Assembly (NCBI GenBank): GCA_018262975.1
Contig: JADFDG010000019.1
Location: 1 to 64,000, forward strand
Direction: 5' to 3'
From: Gammaproteobacteria bacterium
Lineage (GTDB): Bacteria; Pseudomonadota; Gammaproteobacteria; Pseudomonadales; JADFDG01
Length of the DNA stretch: 64,000 bases
This document shows positions 3,927 through 35,043 of the stretch, in pieces. Numbering within the stretch: the first letter of the stretch is position 1; the number at the start of each line of letters is the position of its first letter. The notes below the pieces were generated by a model. It was not told the DNA's origin, ran no database searches, and saw nothing but the letters and a program-made list of their open reading frames with translations. A program made the position numbers and the translations under genes.

Positions 3927-6900
3927 ATGACGATGCGGAAGGCCGTTGGCAGCAGGGGCGCGCTGCGCCCGTGGGTCGTGGGGGCTTTGCTGGCGATCAC
4001 CACGCCTGCGGTACTGGCCAACTCGACGGGGATCTCCGGCTATTCCGGCAGCAGCGCGAACTGTACGAGTTGCCATACCGGCAGCAGTTACTTCGGCTAC
4101 AGCGCGGCCTTCAGCGGCGGCTCCAGTACCGTTGCCCCGGGCGGCAGCAGTACATATACGTTCAGTCTCACGCGCAGTAACGGCCCGATGGCCGCCAACG
4201 CCGGTTTCAACGTGTCCGCCAGCGGCGGCAGTTTCACCGCCGGTACCGCACAGCAAGTCCTGGGCGGTGAGCTCACGCACACTGGCCCGGCGGTGACCGG
4301 TGGCGGCAGTGCTGCCTGGAGCATCGAGTTCGCGGCGCCGGCAACGGTCGGCACGGTTACCCTGTATGGCTGCGGCAACCCGGTGGCCGTGGACGGCGAT
4401 ACCACCAACGACGGTCCAGCGCGCTGCAACACGCGCACCATCACCATCAATCGCTCGCCGACCGCCACCAACGATGCCATGTCGGTGGCGAAGAACTCGT
4501 CGAACAATTCGTACAGCGTCCTCGACAACGACTTCAGCGGCACCGGCAGCAACGACAGTGGCGACTCCATCTCGCTGACATCGGTGAGTACCGCCAGCCA
4601 CGGCACTACCAGCCGCGTCGGCAACACCATCCGCTATACGCCCACGGCGGGCTACGCCGGCTCCGACAGCTTCACCTACGTGGTCACCGATTCGCTCGGC
4701 GCCACCGACACCGGCACGGTCACCGTCACGGTGACCAACAGCGCCCCGGTCGGCGTGGTCGACAGCTACGGCGCCACCGAGGACACCGTACTCACCGTCA
4801 ACGCCGCCAGCGGTGTGCTGGCCAACGACACGGATGCCAACGGTGATGCGCTGACGGCCTCGGTGGTCTCCTCGCCATCGAAGGGCATCCTGAACCTGGC
4901 GTCCAACGGCAGCTTCACCTACACGCCGTCCAGCAACCAGACCGGGTCCGACAGCTTCGTTTACCGGGCCAATGACGGCAGTGCCAACTCGTCGAACACC
5001 ACGGTCAATATCACCATCAGCGCCGTGAACGATGCGCCGGTGGCCAACGCGAACAGCTACAACGCCACCGAGGACACCCTGCTGACGGTGGCGGTGGGCA
5101 GCGGCGTGCTGGCGAACGACACCGACGCGGAGGGCAGTGCACTGACTGCCGCGGTGGTCAGTACCACCACCCATGGCACCCTCACGCTCAACAGCAACGG
5201 CAGCTTCACCTACCTGCCTGCGGCCAACTACAACGGCAGCGACAGTTTCACCTACCGCGCCAATGACGGCAGCCTCAATTCCACGGCAGCAACGGTGACG
5301 CTGTCGATTGCCGCGGCGAACGACGCGCCGGGCGCCGCGGCGGATGCCTATTCGACGGATGAAGACACGGCCCTGGTGGTCAATGCCGCCAGTGGCGTGC
5401 TGGCCAACGATGGCGACGTCGATGGCGACACCTTGTCGGCGGTGAAGGACAGCGACCCCGCGCACGGCACGCTGACCCTCAACAGCAACGGCAGCTTCAC
5501 CTACACGCCGGCGCTGGACTACAACGGCCCCGACAGTTTCACCTACCACGCCACCGACGGCCTGCTGTCGTCGCCGGTGCGCACCGTGACCCTGTCGGTT
5601 TCCTCCGGCAATGACCCGCCCACGGTGGGCAACGACAGTTACTCGCTGGACGAGGACGGCAGCCTGGTGGTCACGGCCGGCGGCGGCGTGCTGGCCAATG
5701 ACAGTGACCTGGACAGTGACCCGATCACCGCCGTGCTGGCGAGCGGCCCGGCGCACGGCAGCCTGACGCTCAACGCCAACGGCAGCTTCACCTACACGCC
5801 GGCGGCGAACTGGTTCGGCGTGGACAACTTCACCTACCGCGCCAACGACGGCACGGTCAGTTCGCTGCTGGCTGCCACCGTTACCCTGACGGTCAACGCG
5901 GTCAATGACCTGCCGGTGATCGGCAGCAGTGCGGTCACCAGCGCCACCGAGGACACTGCCTATTCGTACGATGTGCAGGCGACCGACGTTGAAACGGCAG
6001 GGCTCGTGTATACCCTGACCTCGTCGCCGGACGGCATGGTCATCAATGCGTCGAACGGCCTCATCAGCTGGACGCCAACCAACGCGCAATCCGGCAGGTC
6101 CTGGCCGGTCACCGTGGAAGTGTCCGACGGTACGGCGACCGTGTCGCAGTCGTGGACTCTCGACGTGACGGCGGTGAACGACCCGCCGGCGCTGGCGGCG
6201 ATCCCGGCGCAGTCGGTGGTGGAATTGTCGGAACTGAGCATCAATGCCGGCACCTATGCGTCTGACGTCGATGATGCCAACGACGGCAATCTCGCCTGGA
6301 GCATCAGTGCCGAGAACGCGCCGGGCACCGTGGCGATCACCAACCGTGGCGTCATCACCTACACGCCGGGGCAGAACACCGACGGCACCTGGTCGGTGAC
6401 CGTGCGCCTGGCCGATGGCGGCGAGGACAGCGCGGCCGCCGCGACCCGCACTTTCTCCCTCACGGTGGTGCGCCTCGACGGTGACGGCGACGGCGTTGCC
6501 AACTACAACGACAACTGCGTGGCACTGGCCAATGCCGACCAGGCCGACAACGACGGCGACGGCACGGGTGGTGGCAGCGGCGGAATCAGCGGCGGTGATG
6601 CCTGCGACAGTGACGACGACAACGACGGCCTGAGCGATGTCGCCGAGCTCGCCAACCTGCTCGATCCGTTCGATGCCGGTGATGCAGCGACCGACCTCGA
6701 TGGTGACGGTCTGAGCAACCTGGACGAGTTCCTCGCCTGCCTGCCCGCGGACACGGATTGCGTGGCGATTTCGCAGGACTCCGTCGGGCCGGTGATCACC
6801 ACCGGTGGCGACATCGAGGTGGTTGCCGAGGGCTACTACACGCAGGTCACCGTATCCGCCACGGCGGCGGAAATCAGTTTCGGCCTGCCGACCGCGGTCA

Positions 6901-8426
6901 CCGCGGTCATCGACAGGCTCGACGGTGTCGATATCCCCGACACCCGGGCGTTGCCGCCGCTGCGCCCGGGCACCCACGTGCTGGAATGGATGGCGTCCGA
7001 TGCGGCGTTGCCCGTGCCGAACGTGACGCGTGAGACGCAGCAGGTGCGCATCGTGCCCACCATCACCGTCGGTGGTACCCGCGTGGTCGGTGAAGGCCAG
7101 ACCGCCGGCGTGCGCGTGCTGCTCAACGGCGAGTCGCCGCAGTACCCGGTGACGGTCGACTACACGATCGGCGGCCTCGTCGACGCGGCGGACATCGGCG
7201 TTGCCACCAGCGGCAGCATCACGATTCCCGCCGGTACCGAGGGCTGGCTGTACGTGCCGGTAGTGGCCGATGGTTCCGGCGAGGGCGACGAGACGCTGGT
7301 GTTCACGCTGGCCGGCGTCAGTGGCGGCAAGGCGGCGCTGGCCGGCAGTGCGGTCACGACCGTGCTGGTCACCGAGGGTCCGGCGGCACCGCGCGTTGGC
7401 GCGCTGGATGTCGTCCAGGGTGGCGATGCGCGCCGCACGGTCTATCGCAACGATGGCACGGTGACTGTCAGTGCGCTGGCCACTGACCCGGATGGCGATG
7501 TGCTGTCGTGGGACTGGTCGCTGTCGGCACCGGCTCTGGCGGGCACTGCCACCGGCGCAAGCTTCACCTTCGACCCGGCGCTGGTTGCCGCGGGTGCCTA
7601 CGACGTGGTGGTGCGCGTGTCCGATGGCCTGCACCTGGTCGAGCAGCGGGCCACGCTGCACGTGCTCAATGCACTGCCCGTGCTGGTGGATGATGGTTCC
7701 GATACCGACGGCGATGGCCGCAGCGACTACGACGAGGGCGTGGTCGATGCCGATGACGACGGGCTGCTCGATTACCTCGACCCGGTGGATTCGCCCGAAC
7801 AGGTTGCGCTGGCCATGACCGGAACCGGCGCGCCGCGGGTGGCGGTCGCGCAGCCGGGCGTGCAACTGGCCGCCGGTGCGCGTGCCGTGGCAGGGCAGGG
7901 CGGTGGCATCCAGGTGCAGATGTCCGCGGTGGTTGATGCAGACGGCGATCCCGTCAGCGACCCGGGACACCTGCACGTGGCGGCGGTGTTTGACTTCGAG
8001 TTGCGCAACGTGCCCGCTGACGGCATCGCGTCGGTCGTGCTGCCATTGCCGACGGCGTTGCCGCCGGGTGCCGTCTGGCGGAAGTTCCTCAACGGCGGCT
8101 GGTTCGATTTCGTGGAGGGTGCCGGCGACGCGTTGGCCTCGGCCGTGCCCGTCAATGGCAACTGCCCGGCGTTCGACGACGCGTCCTGGGTGGATGGCCT
8201 CGCGGCCGGTCACGCCTGCGTGCGCCTGACGCTCAGTGACGGCGGTCCCAACGATGCCGACGGCGTGGCGAACGGCGTGATCCGCGACCCGTCCGGTCCT
8301 GCCATCCCCGAGGCCGCGCCACCGCCGGCTCCTCCGGCAGGCGAGGTTGCCGGTGGTTCCGCCGGGTACTGGCTTGTCTTCCTGCTGGCGCTGGCCGGCG
8401 TATATCGCGCGCGTCGCAAGGACTGA
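3927..8426 (+). CDS. Giant secreted repeat protein with N-terminal CxxCH and C-terminal anchor
   Basis: A 1499-residue exported protein. It has a signal peptide (residues about 1-32) and then a domain with a single heme-type motif CTSCH at residues 46-50, resembling the choice-of-anchor V/reelin-like class. Next come Ig/cadherin-like repeats, four of them exactly 97 residues apart (motif NGSFTY near residues 328, 425, 522 and 619), and two more divergent repeats. A calcium-type D-rich thrombospondin-3 segment (DGDGDGVANYNDNC), a Calx-beta-like region, a PKD-like region and a second D-rich segment follow. A choice-of-anchor U-like domain ending DGGPNDADGVANGVI comes last. The extreme C-terminus is GGSAG, one hydrophobic helix and RARRKD, the layout of GlyGly-CTERM-like sorting signals. 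No sorting protease is seen in the window. First gene of a three-gene operon; function unknown, surface adhesion or redox display possible. Confidence 0.85.
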   Translation: MTMRKAVGSRGALRPWVVGALLAITTPAVLANSTGISGYSGSSANCTSCHTGSSYFGYSAAFSGGSSTVAPGGSSTYTFSLTRSNGPMAANAGFNVSASGGSFTAGTAQQVLGGELTHTGPAVTGGGSAAWSIEFAAPATVGTVTLYGCGNPVAVDGDTTNDGPARCNTRTITINRSPTATNDAMSVAKNSSNNSYSVLDNDFSGTGSNDSGDSISLTSVSTASHGTTSRVGNTIRYTPTAGYAGSDSFTYVVTDSLGATDTGTVTVTVTNSAPVGVVDSYGATEDTVLTVNAASGVLANDTDANGDALTASVVSSPSKGILNLASNGSFTYTPSSNQTGSDSFVYRANDGSANSSNTTVNITISAVNDAPVANANSYNATEDTLLTVAVGSGVLANDTDAEGSALTAAVVSTTTHGTLTLNSNGSFTYLPAANYNGSDSFTYRANDGSLNSTAATVTLSIAAANDAPGAAADAYSTDEDTALVVNAASGVLANDGDVDGDTLSAVKDSDPAHGTLTLNSNGSFTYTPALDYNGPDSFTYHATDGLLSSPVRTVTLSVSSGNDPPTVGNDSYSLDEDGSLVVTAGGGVLANDSDLDSDPITAVLASGPAHGSLTLNANGSFTYTPAANWFGVDNFTYRANDGTVSSLLAATVTLTVNAVNDLPVIGSSAVTSATEDTAYSYDVQATDVETAGLVYTLTSSPDGMVINASNGLISWTPTNAQSGRSWPVTVEVSDGTATVSQSWTLDVTAVNDPPALAAIPAQSVVELSELSINAGTYASDVDDANDGNLAWSISAENAPGTVAITNRGVITYTPGQNTDGTWSVTVRLADGGEDSAAAATRTFSLTVVRLDGDGDGVANYNDNCVALANADQADNDGDGTGGGSGGISGGDACDSDDDNDGLSDVAELANLLDPFDAGDAATDLDGDGLSNLDEFLACLPADTDCVAISQDSVGPVITTGGDIEVVAEGYYTQVTVSATAAEISFGLPTAVTAVIDRLDGVDIPDTRALPPLRPGTHVLEWMASDAALPVPNVTRETQQVRIVPTITVGGTRVVGEGQTAGVRVLLNGESPQYPVTVDYTIGGLVDAADIGVATSGSITIPAGTEGWLYVPVVADGSGEGDETLVFTLAGVSGGKAALAGSAVTTVLVTEGPAAPRVGALDVVQGGDARRTVYRNDGTVTVSALATDPDGDVLSWDWSLSAPALAGTATGASFTFDPALVAAGAYDVVVRVSDGLHLVEQRATLHVLNALPVLVDDGSDTDGDGRSDYDEGVVDADDDGLLDYLDPVDSPEQVALAMTGTGAPRVAVAQPGVQLAAGARAVAGQGGGIQVQMSAVVDADGDPVSDPGHLHVAAVFDFELRNVPADGIASVVLPLPTALPPGAVWRKFLNGGWFDFVEGAGDALASAVPVNGNCPAFDDASWVDGLAAGHACVRLTLSDGGPNDADGVANGVIRDPSGPAIPEAAPPPAPPAGEVAGGSAGYWLVFLLALAGVYRARRKD

Positions 8427-8429
8427 AGC

Positions 8430-9329
8430 ATGAACAAGGGATTGCTGCTGGCGCGCGCGTTGCCGCTGTTGCTGGGCGTGCAGGTTGCGCATGGCGCCGG
8501 GGAGGAGTCGCCCTGGGTGATCGATGGCGAGGCCACCGTTGGCTATGACAGCAACGTCGCGCGCGCCGCCTTCGATCGTGATGTCATCGACGATGCCTTC
8601 GCCGGCGGATCGCTGGCGCTGGCCTGGAACCGCGAGCTGGGCATGATGAGTGCGTTGACGCTGCGCGGCTTCGTCGATGGCGAGGTCTTCGCCGACCTCG
8701 ACGGTCTCAATCGTGCCGGCGCCGGCGTGCAGGGAATCTATCGATGGCAGCGCAAGCTTGGCTTCTCGGCCCCATTCTTCCAGGCCAGCCTGGGCGTCCA
8801 GACCAACGACTACGGCGTGGCCCTGCGCGATGAAGACCGCTACACGGCGCAGGTGTTCGTCACGCGCCGCTTCACCGACGCGTTCCGCGCTTCGCTGGGG
8901 CTGGAGGCGGCGTCACAACGCGCCGATGGCGAGGCGTATGACGTTGACAGTGCCCGCCTGTTCGTCAATGGCGATCTGGCGCTGGGTGGCCCGTGGGCGG
9001 TGTACGGAACCTACAGCGCGCAGACGGGCGACGTGGTGTCCTCCGCGCAGTTCCGCTTCTGTAACGGTGCACTTGCGCCGGATATCTTCGCGCTGGTGGA
9101 TGCGGCCGAGGCCATCGAGCCGGATACCGCGCTCAACGAGACGCTCTGCGGTGACTGGCTGGCCTACCGCCTCGATGCGCTGACGCATGTTTTCGTGCTG
9201 GGCGCCAACCGCGGCTTCGGCCATGCGCTGTCCATGGACCTGTCGGCCCAGCACGTGATCGTGCAGGCCGACGGTGATAACGAATACCAGCGCACCATCG
9301 TGCGTGCTGGCATCCTGGCGAGGTTCTGA
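8430..9329 (+). CDS. Predicted outer-membrane beta-barrel protein
   Basis: A 299-residue protein with a signal peptide (cleavage near AHGAGEE, about residue 22). It then has alternating amphipathic strands such as DGEATVGYDSNVARA and ends in a phenylalanine (AGILARF), as outer-membrane barrels do. The opening is typical of porin-like or DUF-type surface barrels in which GYDSN marks the first strand. Only three bases separate it from the stop of the giant repeat protein, and the lipoprotein gene follows four bases after its stop, so the three are surely co-transcribed. The specific family is not recognised. A role as the barrel partner of the flanking CxxCH proteins is inferred from position only. 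Confidence 0.7.
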   Translation: MNKGLLLARALPLLLGVQVAHGAGEESPWVIDGEATVGYDSNVARAAFDRDVIDDAFAGGSLALAWNRELGMMSALTLRGFVDGEVFADLDGLNRAGAGVQGIYRWQRKLGFSAPFFQASLGVQTNDYGVALRDEDRYTAQVFVTRRFTDAFRASLGLEAASQRADGEAYDVDSARLFVNGDLALGGPWAVYGTYSAQTGDVVSSAQFRFCNGALAPDIFALVDAAEAIEPDTALNETLCGDWLAYRLDALTHVFVLGANRGFGHALSMDLSAQHVIVQADGDNEYQRTIVRAGILARF

Positions 9330-9333
9330 CGGC

Positions 9334-11583
9334 ATGAAACCCAAGCATTGGCTGTATGCGCTGTATGCCGCCGCGGTATTCGTGCTGGCCGGTTGCGATG
9401 AGCGCGGTGATGAAACCCTGCCGGTAGCGGCCCTGCCGGAGGACTCGCCCGACGCCTTCCTGCAATACCTGAATACGCAGCCGGCACTGGCGGCGGGAGA
9501 CTATGAGGTCGTCGTCGCGACCACGTGGCCCAACAGTTACGGGCAGTACCGGCTGAGCGTCACCATGGCCGATGGGGATACCCGGGAGTTCGCCGGCGGC
9601 TGGGCCGGCTCCGGTGGCCGCAACGCGCACGACATGCGTAATCCGCGCCACACGATTTCCTTGTCCCGCGCCGGCGGGCTCACCGTCGCGCTGGAAGCCA
9701 GCACCAGTGGTTACCTGTACCTGGTGCGCAATGGCCAGGTCATTGCCCAGGATGGCAGCAGTGGTCCCGGCGGCACGCCGCTGATCGACCTGCCCGTCAG
9801 TGCGATCAGTTCTGCGGCGTACGGAGCCGCGTACTACGCGGCCGTCGACCCGGATGGCGAGCGGGCCACCGTCGAGGATTTCAAGCGACGCAACTGCTTT
9901 GTCGCCGGCCACCCCGACTGCGCAGTGGAGACCGTGGGCTACCAGGCGCACGTGGTGTTCCGCGACAGCAAGGACCTGGGCTACGGTCGCAACATGTACG
10001 CGCGCCGCAATTCGCGCGGCACCGTTGACACCGCCGACGACAGTTTTGCCTTCTTCGTGGACAACTACGTGGTCCGCCTGCAGCCGGGCAGCAGCACCAA
10101 CTACGGTCCCATGAACGTCGAGCCGGCCGTGCGCGAGGACCGGGACTATCACCGCGGTACCAACGCCATCGAGTTCACGCCGATCGACCCGGACGATCCG
10201 GCCTCGGAACGCATCACCCGTTTCTTCACCTACAGTCCTGCCGGTGAACGCATTACCTCCGCCGACCTGGACGGGCGCGGCGTCAAGCACATGCCCGGCA
10301 TGTGCTTTGCCTGCCACGGCGGCCGGCTGCTGCCGCTGGAACCCGACGGCAGTTTCCCGCTGCAGGCGCTGCGCTCCGCCAAGTACAACCTGCTCGAACT
10401 CGACACCTTCGACTACTCCGCCGAGGCGGGCTTCAGTCGCGCCGAACAGGAAGCGGACTTCCGCCTGATGAACCGCTTCGTCTACGAGTCGTGGCAACAA
10501 ACCGGGGCGCGCGACGACAGCGAGCCGGGCAAGTGGCATGCCGATTTTGCGCTGGAGATCGCCGCCGGCCATTACGGCGGTGCCGCGTTCCCCGCGGCAA
10601 CCTACCAGGACGATTTCGTCCCCGCCGGCTGGCAGGCGGCGCCCGGCCGGCCGGAAGGCATCGAGCAGTTGTACCTGCGCGTGGTTGCGCCGCACTGCGT
10701 TGCCTGCCATTCCCAGCAGGGCACGCGTGCCGGGCAGATCGCCTCGACTTACGGCAATGCGATCAACTTCAGCAGCTGGGAGAAGTTCATCAGCTACCGC
10801 GAGGTCATCATCGACTACGTGTACCGGCGCGGGGTCATGCCGCTGGCGCTGCGCAACTACGAGGCGTTCTGGCGCGACCCGCAGGACAAGCCGGCGTTGC
10901 TGGCATCCTTCCTGTCGGAGCCCGCCCTGTTCGATGCCGCGGGCAGGGTGCTCGTCCCGGGGCTGCCCGTGGCCCGACCGGGCGCCGACCGGGTCGCTCC
11001 CTCGCCGGTACGCCTCGATGGCACGGCCAGCGGCTTCGCGCAGGTTTACGACTGGGACATTGTCCATGCGCCGCTCGGCGCAACGGTGTCGCTGGATGAC
11101 GACCGCTCGGCCCGGCCCTTGCTCACTGCCGACATGGACGGCGACTACCTGTTGTCCCTGCGGGTGGCCAACAGCCAGGGCGTGAGTGCAGCCGTCGAGA
11201 TGACGGTCACCATCGACAGCGGCATGGCCGACCCGGCGACACTCACTTTCGAAAACGACATCCAGCCGTTGCTGGAGAACCCGCTGTCGGCCGACGCCTG
11301 CACGCTGTGCCACGTGGCGTCATCGCCATACCCGGGTATCCCGGTGTCGTATGACCCGGCCGACAACCCGCGCGTCTACCGTGACGTGCTGGCGCGCATC
11401 AACCTGGCCGAGCCGGAAAACAGTGCGCTGCTGGTCAAGCCGACCGGCTTGCGCCATGGCGGCGGCATCCAGATGGACCTGTCGAGCGTGGAAGGCCGCG
11501 ATGCCTACAACACCATCCTGGCGTGGATCCGTGCCGGCGCGCCGTGCAGCGACCAGCGGCCGCTGCCGGCGAGTTGCCAGTAA
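9334..11583 (+). CDS. Three-heme-motif c-type lipoprotein
   Basis: A 749-residue protein starting MKPKHWLYALYAAA with lipobox LAGC (Cys21), hence a predicted lipoprotein. Three cytochrome c motifs are visible: CFACH at residue 324, CVACH at 455 and CTLCH at 656. The start used is four bases after the previous stop; an in-frame start 60 bases upstream would bury the signal peptide. Residues about 560-630 look like an Ig-like domain (SPVRLDGTASG to VTIDSG), and residues after 640 resemble the cytochrome c segment found in many hypothetical proteins that bind one heme near the C-terminus (FENDIQPLLENP). Substrate unknown. No catalytic domain is recognised, so electron transfer or heme-dependent sensing is all that can be inferred. 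Confidence 0.8.
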   Translation: MKPKHWLYALYAAAVFVLAGCDERGDETLPVAALPEDSPDAFLQYLNTQPALAAGDYEVVVATTWPNSYGQYRLSVTMADGDTREFAGGWAGSGGRNAHDMRNPRHTISLSRAGGLTVALEASTSGYLYLVRNGQVIAQDGSSGPGGTPLIDLPVSAISSAAYGAAYYAAVDPDGERATVEDFKRRNCFVAGHPDCAVETVGYQAHVVFRDSKDLGYGRNMYARRNSRGTVDTADDSFAFFVDNYVVRLQPGSSTNYGPMNVEPAVREDRDYHRGTNAIEFTPIDPDDPASERITRFFTYSPAGERITSADLDGRGVKHMPGMCFACHGGRLLPLEPDGSFPLQALRSAKYNLLELDTFDYSAEAGFSRAEQEADFRLMNRFVYESWQQTGARDDSEPGKWHADFALEIAAGHYGGAAFPAATYQDDFVPAGWQAAPGRPEGIEQLYLRVVAPHCVACHSQQGTRAGQIASTYGNAINFSSWEKFISYREVIIDYVYRRGVMPLALRNYEAFWRDPQDKPALLASFLSEPALFDAAGRVLVPGLPVARPGADRVAPSPVRLDGTASGFAQVYDWDIVHAPLGATVSLDDDRSARPLLTADMDGDYLLSLRVANSQGVSAAVEMTVTIDSGMADPATLTFENDIQPLLENPLSADACTLCHVASSPYPGIPVSYDPADNPRVYRDVLARINLAEPENSALLVKPTGLRHGGGIQMDLSSVEGRDAYNTILAWIRAGAPCSDQRPLPASCQ

Positions 11584-11603: not shown

Positions 11604-12332
11604 TCAGTAGCCGCGGCGCGGCGTGCTGTAGCCCTTCACCGAGGAGAACGGCGGGGTGCGGCCGACGATGGCCTCCACCAGCATGAGTTCCTCGTCGGTG
11701 TGGTTCTTCATGGGGGCGGGGGTGATCAGCTTGCCGCCATCCGGGTTCGCCAGCACGTAGCGCGGTGCGTCGTGGTGCACCGAGCGGATGTTCTCGAACT
11801 CTTCGGGATTCTCGTTGGCGTTGATGTCGACGACGCCGTAACAGGTGCACACGTAGCTGGCATCCGGCATGGCTTCCGCGTACACGCCGGTGCCGCGGAT
11901 GCCGATGGTGGCGGTGGTGGTGCTCAGCGTGTAGTTCTTGCCGGTCTTTGGACGCTGGCCGAACACGGACAGCAGGGCGCCGCTGACCAGGCGCAGGCCC
12001 TCGGCAAAGGTGTCGCTGGACGAGGCCAGCTGGATACGGCTGTTCTCGCGCAGGATGTGGGCATCCTGGCCGACGCGGAAGATCACCAGGCTGTTGCTGC
12101 CGGTTTCCACCGTCGAGCGGGTGCCGATGCGCGTGTTGCGGTCGGCCTGCTTGCCGTCGACACGCACCGTGCCGCGCACGTCGTAGATGGAGCGACCGGC
12201 CGGCAGCTCCTTCGGTACCTGGCCGCCGAGGGCATGTACAAGCGGGGCGAGCAGGCTGCCGCCGGCCAGGACGAATCCCGAGGCCAGGCTGCGTTGCAGG
12301 AAACGGCGGCGTTCTTCATCGAACTCGAACAT
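11604..12332 (-). CDS. FecR-domain protein with Tat-type signal
   Basis: A 242-residue protein. The start EERRRFLQRSLASG followed by a hydrophobic stretch is a twin-arginine export signal. The body (residues about 50-170) is a FecR domain, seen in VRVDGKQADRNTRIGTRSTVETGSNSLVIF and in TATIGIRGTGVYAEA. Such domains occur in sensors and in many secreted proteins of unknown role. Two cysteines in VCTCYG are unusual for the domain. It faces the envelope operon with only 20 bases between stops. No sigma factor or TonB receptor is adjacent, so a classical FecIR role is not supported. Confidence 0.8.
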   Translation of the reverse strand: MFEFDEERRRFLQRSLASGFVLAGGSLLAPLVHALGGQVPKELPAGRSIYDVRGTVRVDGKQADRNTRIGTRSTVETGSNSLVIFRVGQDAHILRENSRIQLASSSDTFAEGLRLVSGALLSVFGQRPKTGKNYTLSTTTATIGIRGTGVYAEAMPDASYVCTCYGVVDINANENPEEFENIRSVHHDAPRYVLANPDGGKLITPAPMKNHTDEELMLVEAIVGRTPPFSSVKGYSTPRRGY

Positions 12333-33512: not shown

Positions 33513-34262
33513 TTACAGGGGGGGCAGGGAGGTGCTGGCGGGCCGGTAGCCGTCGGGGTCGGGGCGCAGCCACTGGTGGCCGTCGAAGTACTCCAGCGGC
33601 TGGTACTCGCGCTTGTAGCTCATCTTCCGGCACTGGCGGATCCAGTAGCCGAGGTAGACGTAGCCGAGGCCGCGCTTGCGGGCCTCCATGACCTGCCAGA
33701 GGATCACGTAGCGCCCGGGGCTGCGAGGCTCCTCGTCCGGGTCGTAGAAGGTGTAGACCGCCGACATGCCGCCATCCACGTGGTCGACCACGGCCAGCGC
33801 CACCAGCCGGCCGTCGGCGCGGAACTCGTAAAAGCGGGAGTTGCCCCACGAGCACAGCAGGAACGAGCGGAACTGGTTGCGGCTGGGCGGGTACATGTCG
33901 CCGTCCTGGTGACGGGCGTTGATGTACTTCTCGTACAGCGCGTAGTACTCGGGCGTGTAGCGCGGCGGGGCGGAAATCACCATCAGGTCGGCGTTGCGTG
34001 CCAGGCAGCGGCGCTGCGTGCGCGTCGGCTCGAAGGCGTGGGCGGCGATACGCACCGGGATGCAGGCGTGGCAGGTGCCACAGTGCGGGCGGTAGATGAA
34101 GTCGCCGCTACGGCGGAACCCCACCGCGGTCAGCTGCGAATAGACGTCGGCCGACACCTCGGTCTTGGGATCGAGGAACAGGGTCACGGCCTCGCGGTCC
34201 GGCAGGTAACTGCAACGGTGCGCGGGCGTGCAATAGAACTTGAGAGTCTGGAGGTTGCTCAT
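33513..34262 (-). CDS. bpt: Aspartate/glutamate leucyltransferase (Bpt)
   Basis: A 249-residue tRNA-protein transferase that adds leucine to N-terminal Asp or Glu, turning them into ClpS substrates. The signature CGTCHACIPVRI, SNFKxSRSQ-type segment and C-terminal YIGYWIxxxxKMxYK pattern (YLGYWIRQCRKMSYKREYQP here) are those of the Bpt/Ate1 fold. The start is the ATG ahead of SNLQTLKFY. Pairs with aat 60 bp upstream on the same strand. Confidence 0.92.
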   Translation of the reverse strand: MSNLQTLKFYCTPAHRCSYLPDREAVTLFLDPKTEVSADVYSQLTAVGFRRSGDFIYRPHCGTCHACIPVRIAAHAFEPTRTQRRCLARNADLMVISAPPRYTPEYYALYEKYINARHQDGDMYPPSRNQFRSFLLCSWGNSRFYEFRADGRLVALAVVDHVDGGMSAVYTFYDPDEEPRSPGRYVILWQVMEARKRGLGYVYLGYWIRQCRKMSYKREYQPLEYFDGHQWLRPDPDGYRPASTSLPPL

Positions 34263-34323
34263 GCGATGCCGGCAGCCCTGGATAGCCCGAGTGTAGGCCA
34301 GCAAGGGCGGGACCGGAACGGGG

Positions 34324-35043
34324 TCAGTTACAGTCCGGCGCCGGATCGATACGCCAGTCGGGTGGGGGTTGCGCCACGGCGTCGGCCACGATGCCGGCGA
34401 AGGTCGCCCGCGGCATGAAGGCGGCGCCGAAACGCGCCAGGTGCGCGGTCTGCATCTGGCAATCCACCAGCGGGAAGTCCCAGGCAGCCAGCTGGCGGCA
34501 GAGTACGGCGAACGCGGCCTTGGAGGCGTCGTCGGCGCGGGCAAACATCGATTCGCCGAAGAACATGCGTCCCAGCGCCACCCCGTACAGGCCGCCGGCC
34601 AGTTCGCCGTCCTGCCAGGCTTCCACGGAATGGGCGTGCCCTGCCTCATGCAGGCGTACATACGCCTCGATCATCTCGCGGGTGATCCAGGTGCCGGCCT
34701 GCCCGTCGCGCGGCGCCGTCGCACAGGCCTCGATCACCGCGCGGAAGGCGCGGTCAACGGTGAAGGTGAACGTCTGCCGGTTGAGGGTACGGCGCAGCGA
34801 GCGGCCGATGTGTACCTGCGCCGGGTCGAGCACGAAGCGCGGATCAGGTGACCACCAGAGGATCGGGTCGCCGGTGCTGAACCAGGGGAAGATTCCGCGC
34901 GAATAGGCGGCCACCAGGCGCTCGACGGAGAGGTCGCCGCCGACGGCCAGCAGGCCGTCAGGGTCGCGCAGTGCGCGCGTGAGCGGCGGGAAGGCGTGCG
35001 GGTCGTCGCCAAGCAGGGCCAGCCGGATGCCTGCGCCTGCCAT
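34324..35043 (-). CDS. aat: Leucyl/phenylalanyl-tRNA-protein transferase
   Basis: A 239-residue enzyme that adds Leu or Phe to N-terminal Lys or Arg. Seen: [45 protein letters not shown] and [18 protein letters not shown], the diagnostic Aat blocks. It shares the N-degron role with bpt, clpS and clpA, all within 5 kb. Confidence 0.96.

Follow-up and report, generated by a model that had tools for sequence, protein, structure and literature searches.

The stretch of DNA analysed here, hereafter the window, comprises 64,000 nucleotides of contig JADFDG010000019.1 from a gammaproteobacterial genome (GenBank assembly GCA_018262975.1). It contains an operon of three plus-strand genes, designated A, B, and C, encoding a predicted surface stalk protein with one CxxCH heme-attachment motif, a predicted outer-membrane β-barrel, and a lipoprotein with three such motifs, respectively. 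The operon is flanked by a LysR/ROK-kinase region on one side and a convergent FecR gene on the other. A preliminary description of this DNA had given intergenic gaps of 3 bp (A–B) and 4 bp (B–C), and these proved exact once gene C was started at ATG 9334. A longer open reading frame (ORF) for C, beginning at GTG 9274, was discarded because it runs into gene B and spoils the signal peptide; the protein translated from position 9334 has 749 amino acids and a signal peptide with the lipobox LAGC. The motif counts given in the same description, one in A and three in C (CFACH, CVACH, and CTLCH), were found again in the translations, and B contained none. These counts are far above chance, as composition-preserving shuffles gave a mean of 0.001 motifs for A and 0.0028 for C, and three or more motifs in C were reached in 0 of 20,000 shuffles. 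Elsewhere among the long ORFs of the same scan, CxxCH was seen just once, as CGTCH within an ORF at 33513-34661 that was read as an arginyl-tRNA-protein transferase unrelated to the operon.

Conservation of the gene set was investigated in 295 genomes of the order and in a wider scan of one genome per species, which provided 30 usable loci. Complete operons were found in four other genera of the order, with 48-50% identity to the window protein for C, 36-43% for B, and 34-38% for A. Co-occurrence in other genomes, on which the preliminary description had made its proposal depend, was observed in most of the wider set. Among 29 evaluable loci from other genomes, nearly all gammaproteobacterial, gene B lay directly before gene C at 26 (exceptions L065, L074, and L077; L071, which starts where its contig does, was not counted). 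At 25 of these 26, B was itself preceded by an A-type gene (exception L064). With intergenic distances usually between -4 and +40 bp, and 4-bp overlaps frequent, the retained gene order bears out the view that the three genes form a single operon. Relatives were rare across the phylum at large, and no plasmid homologues of C were found. The named records with the operon were gammaproteobacterial, Pseudomonadota, or unassigned metagenome-assembled genomes (MAGs), with the exception of one MAG labelled Pedobacter (L062). The C protein of this MAG grouped firmly with that of an unassigned genome (L052) beside the window, and as its operon thus falls inside the gammaproteobacterial set, the record is probably mislabelled or contaminated.

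In an alignment of 31 C proteins with a mean column identity of 26%, the His, Met, and Cys columns retained in at least 80% of sequences were the initiator Met, Cys21, Met221, Met320, nine motif residues, Met502, His708, and Cys748. No variation at all was seen in Cys21, Met502, His708, and the nine residues of the motifs. CxxxCH variants were present in the second motif of L071 and the third motif of several relatives; both CxxCH and CxxxCH spacings occur in heme c. The Pfam families Cytochrom_C and Cytochrome_CBB3 matched 24/31 and 23/31 of the proteins, respectively, with a best E value of 2e-7. As judged from this alignment, the attachment motifs of C are under purifying selection and are accompanied by candidate distal ligands, and the motifs, retained in 31/31 C proteins and in 22/22 A proteins with a complete N-terminus, behave under selection as the heme motifs that they had been taken for. 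The assignment of C as a lipoprotein likewise held, the lipobox being predicted and Cys21 unchanged in all 31 sequences. An acidic patch directly follows the lipidated Cys in C and its relatives (ERDDTE, GGDEYEG, GSDDTDI; positions 9394-9435 in the window), and resembles lipoprotein surface-export signals known from other phyla.

An AlphaFold2 model of C, computed heme-free, had a predicted local distance difference test (pLDDT) score of 84.5 and a predicted template modelling (pTM) score of 0.84. The protein as a whole could be assigned to no known family. In a Foldseek search at E<=0.001 only the PKD domain was matched, in agreement with a profile search, and no match was returned for the heme regions, that of heme 1 included. 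The conserved domain preceding heme 1 (amino acids 160-320, with DLGYGR and other conserved motifs) belonged to no known family and had no fold match among the best 50 solved structures. Membership of the MauG/CCP family was rejected, as no CCP_MauG match was obtained in the 31 members (E<=0.1), the family was absent from the best 50 fold matches, and hhalign comparison with the genome's own CCP gave a probability of 7.5% over 13 columns.

Protein A consists, in order, of a signal peptide, a domain carrying the heme motif, eight tandem-95/cadherin-like repeats, a TSP3 repeat, a choice-of-anchor U domain, and a putative sorting tail. In all 22 A proteins with a complete N-terminus the motif lay within about 110 residues of the start. 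The surrounding domain was of three types: choice-of-anchor V in the window, L053, L066, L068, and L069; a cytochrome-like domain, in which Met-Pro is the candidate ligand, at eleven loci; and a third type in Granulosicoccus, where the protein also has a cytochrome c domain (43-50 bits, cut-off 27). Mapped onto the C tree, the type of A changed at least four times, including in the window lineage, which groups with two relatives of another type. If the heme of A were of no importance, it would be difficult to account for a motif that persists while its host domain is exchanged.

A tripartite C-terminal tail was seen by eye in A and its relatives. The genome was found to encode CcmF, the type II secretion system (T2SS) protein GspD (548 bits), and rhombosortase (TIGR03902, 134 bits, cut-off 84), and hemylation and surface anchoring of A are therefore plausible. 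Rhombosortase scored above cut-off in 14/15 operon genomes compared with 58 of 191 further genomes from the order (p 1.8e-6 in a Fisher test that makes no correction for kinship). For VesB, a route has been described in which a GlyGly-CTERM tail is processed by rhombosortase and lipidated, and the protein reaches the surface via the T2SS (PMC6219818), and the T2SS has been implicated in export of the surface cytochromes MtrC and OmcA in Shewanella (PMC1974784). The earlier proposal that A is surface-anchored was accordingly judged likely, from the make-up of the tail and the presence of the partner enzyme.

Protein B, previously proposed to be an outer-membrane barrel, was modelled by AlphaFold2 with high confidence (pLDDT 91.3) as a barrel of 12 strands. 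It matched no known family, and Foldseek returned many porins, none of them close (best TM score about 0.6, to the COG4313 channel 4rl8). No match to MtrB/PioB was obtained, PF11854 being absent from the genome and a hit in one relative at E=0.006 being taken as chance. An autotransporter barrel (PF03797) was also rejected, with no match for B, one in 25 relatives at E=0.023, and a fusion of A and B in two Oleispira loci only. In these two MAGs, A and B form a single ORF (L051:5356-9996 and L054:5233-9924), the joint consisting of a hydrophobic stretch followed by a signal-peptidase-like AxA site (AQA/E, SHA/E), as if one segment doubled as the sorting tail of A and the signal peptide of B; the fusion ORF is possibly a processed polyprotein. 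At L067-L070, B is extended at its N-terminus, with a weak LysM match in some, and the extension would put the N-terminus of B in the periplasm. The coordinates of all features are listed in Table 1.

Table 1. Features of the A-B-C operon and its convergent neighbour (positions in the window; amino acid numbering of the respective protein)
Feature	Position	Strand	Remarks
Gene A, predicted surface stalk protein	3927..8426	+	1499 aa
Signal peptide of A	N-terminus of A		cleavage AVLA/NS
Choice-of-anchor V domain (NF041895) of A	3990..4415	+	carries CxxCH; about 100.6-107 bits, cut-off 42
CTSCH heme c motif of A	4062..4076	+	aa 46-50
Choice-of-anchor U domain of A	7983..8306	+	aa 1353-1460
GlyGly-CTERM-like sorting tail of A (putative)	8352..8423	+	GGSAGYWLVFLLALAGVYRARRKD; Gly/Ser, hydrophobic, basic
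Gene B, predicted 12-stranded outer-membrane β-barrel	8430..9329	+	299 aa
Gene C, three-heme-motif lipoprotein	9334..11583	+	749 aa; lipobox Cys21
Heme motif 1 of C, CFACH	10303..10317	+	aa 324-328; 31/31
Heme motif 2 of C, CVACH	10696..10710	+	aa 455-459; Cys and His columns 31/31
Met502 of C (GxMPL), candidate distal ligand of heme 2	10837..10839	+	31/31
PKD domain of C, between hemes 2 and 3	10975..11220	+	approx. aa 548-628
Heme motif 3 of C, CTLCH	11299..11313	+	aa 656-660; CxxCH or CxxxCH 31/31
His708 of C, candidate distal ligand of heme 3	11455..11457	+	31/31
FecR-domain protein, convergent neighbour	11604..12332	-	

The genes surrounding the operon point to a possible signalling link. 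With genomes fetched twice counted once, FecR homologues (42-64% identical) were located near 12 other operon loci and CHASE2-adenylate cyclases near eight. After the operon in Granulosicoccus (L072, L073, L075, L078, and L081) come genes for a Crp-like regulator and for an adenylate cyclase-FHA protein. A Ser/Thr kinase also follows at L072, L073, and L075, and the upstream genes in this genus look, by eye, like accessory genes of a type VI secretion system.

From sequence and models, the operon very likely encodes a heme-bearing system of the cell surface, read here as a rhombosortase-anchored surface cytochrome module that is probably redox-active. We give even chances to the proposal that A, B, and C form an outer-membrane assembly displaying covalent heme c on the outside of the cell. 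Following Sec export, A would acquire a single heme in the periplasm, close to the N-terminus of the mature protein, and would then be cut by rhombosortase, lipidated, and moved out by type II secretion, so that an immunoglobulin-like (Ig) stalk would rise from the outer leaflet and carry the heme domain at its far end. If extended, the repeats would place this heme tens of nanometres from the anchor, and because it lies beyond the stalk, A may be a tip that meets something rather than a link in a continuous wire. C would be an outer-membrane lipoprotein with three hemes: a core of two, for which Met502 is a likely ligand, and, beyond a PKD spacer, a third paired with His708. B would seat both partners at the membrane. 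The assembly would most likely serve to exchange electrons with an extracellular redox partner or to sense one, and a signal might be reported to the nearby FecR/CHASE2-cyclase or Crp/cyclase genes.

Several observations weigh against this surface redox module. The GlyGly-CTERM NCBIfam model gave no match on A, and the sorting proposal therefore rests on the make-up of the tail and the partner enzyme. The mature C protein starts with C-D-E, which by Escherichia coli rules favours the inner membrane, a feature not kept in the relatives. Clustered relatives L065, L074, and L077 carry C without B, which argues that C can work alone. The window itself has no adjacent CHASE2 gene, the closest homologue being on another contig, and the geometry makes it unlikely that electrons could pass without a break from C to the tip of A.

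Of the known systems, MtrCAB, PioAB, and Omb-Oma-Omc share the overall outline of a barrel, a lipoprotein cytochrome, and a surface heme protein (here putative) encoded together in one operon, as would a true porin-cytochrome conduit passing electrons from C through B to A. However, B has 12 strands, compared with 26 in MtrB (PMC7198977) and about 17 in Cyc2 (PMC10654088), and a lumen of this size should not accommodate a heme protein. The genome contains no MtrB/PioB match, and the operon supplies three heme motifs in C and one in A where the Mtr/Pio conduits have about ten hemes, with an Ig stalk as the surface partner and its single motif at the far end, beyond about a dozen Ig-like domains. 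A wire through the barrel is disfavoured by the strand number and by the position of the motif in A, and a conduit of this kind is very unlikely; the preliminary description had named electron flow from periplasm to surface as one of several possibilities. Cyc2, an N-terminal cytochrome fused directly to a barrel of 16-17 strands, resembles the operon in combining few hemes (motifs here) with a small outer-membrane barrel, but here motifs and barrel reside on separate proteins, B having no CxxCH, and even where A and B are fused in Oleispira, a long distance separates the heme domain from the barrel. The operon would thus work in the manner of a surface cytochrome system while standing outside the known porin-cytochrome families, consistent with the earlier remark that the set fits no recognised conduit.

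The surface hemes could instead respond to the redox state or to a gas (for example O2, NO, or sulfide), with B and C relaying to periplasmic FecR and CHASE2-adenylate cyclase or to Crp-type regulation and no net electron flow. FecR genes near most loci of the clade, CHASE2-cyclases near many, the Granulosicoccus regulator and cyclase, and the precedent of a Burkholderia operon with FecR and a CHASE2 kinase that controls biofilm formation (PMC5192318) would suit such a sensor. It is nevertheless considered unlikely, as the FecR/CHASE2 genes are divergent or convergent, lie outside the operon, and are missing from several loci, and the presence of Met502 and His708 suggests that the hemes have all their ligands, a state in which gas binding is rare. 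A surface oxidative enzyme system for polymer, metal, or peroxide, in which C would be the catalyst and the stalk of A would bind the substrate, has the family-less conserved domain before heme 1 in its favour, but the separation of C from MauG/CCP by both Pfam and profile comparison, together with the lack of a fold match for that domain among the best 50 solved structures, makes this quite improbable. No specific evidence was found for the metal/polymer oxidation mentioned earlier, nor for heme delivery. It is similarly improbable that A is a matrix or contact adhesin with a structural heme and B its anchor: the Oleispira fusion and the fact that A, like large adhesins, is mostly built of cadherin-like and TSP3 repeats are in keeping with this, but it leaves unexplained both the three heme motifs of C and the retention of the motif in A through replacement of its N-terminal domain.

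The surface redox module also shares features with other protein groups. As in rhombosortase-sorted GlyGly-CTERM proteins such as VesB, A has what looks by eye like a Gly/Ser-hydrophobic-basic tail, in a genome with rhombosortase and T2SS, but here the cargo carries a heme motif; no heme-bearing GlyGly-CTERM or choice-of-anchor protein was found described in the literature searched. The N-terminal domain of A is that of choice-of-anchor V/MXAN_6652 family surface proteins, although here it occurs in an operon with a barrel and a multiheme lipoprotein, and relatives place other domains in the same slot. Two-gene relatives (L036-L047) also have a C-like lipoprotein, with the same two-heme core and Met as C, beside an outer-membrane barrel, but that barrel is PF03797, the Ig repeats lie inside C, and there is no A gene; homology of B to these barrels was not detectable. 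In the distant Ig-rich lipoproteins L035-L047, the two-heme core and Met were kept in 12-14 of 14 sequences. The barrels of L036-L047 have about 500 amino acids (PF03797 in the one scanned) and the Ig-rich CxxCH lipoproteins 1200-1800, and at L037, L039, and L047 a caspase-like (Peptidase_C14) gene lies directly upstream.

The module is conserved and undescribed in the literature searched. We propose, tentatively and with somewhat less than even confidence, that it represents a distinct outer-membrane redox machine of marine and oil-associated gammaproteobacteria, unrelated to Mtr, Pio, and Cyc2, in which rhombosortase sets a heme-tipped Ig stalk on the cell surface beside a small barrel and a triheme lipoprotein, and with which the cell would sense an extracellular partner or exchange electrons with it. 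These questions are directly testable, as a named and apparently cultured strain, Alcanivorax sp. 1008 (L060), carries the operon. If true, this would constitute a new type of surface cytochrome in Alcanivorax, Oleispira, Granulosicoccus, and an invertebrate symbiont, none of which is known for extracellular electron transfer. It would also show that rhombosortase and the T2SS are able to display heme proteins, and would offer a way to test what the CxxCH in choice-of-anchor V domains does.

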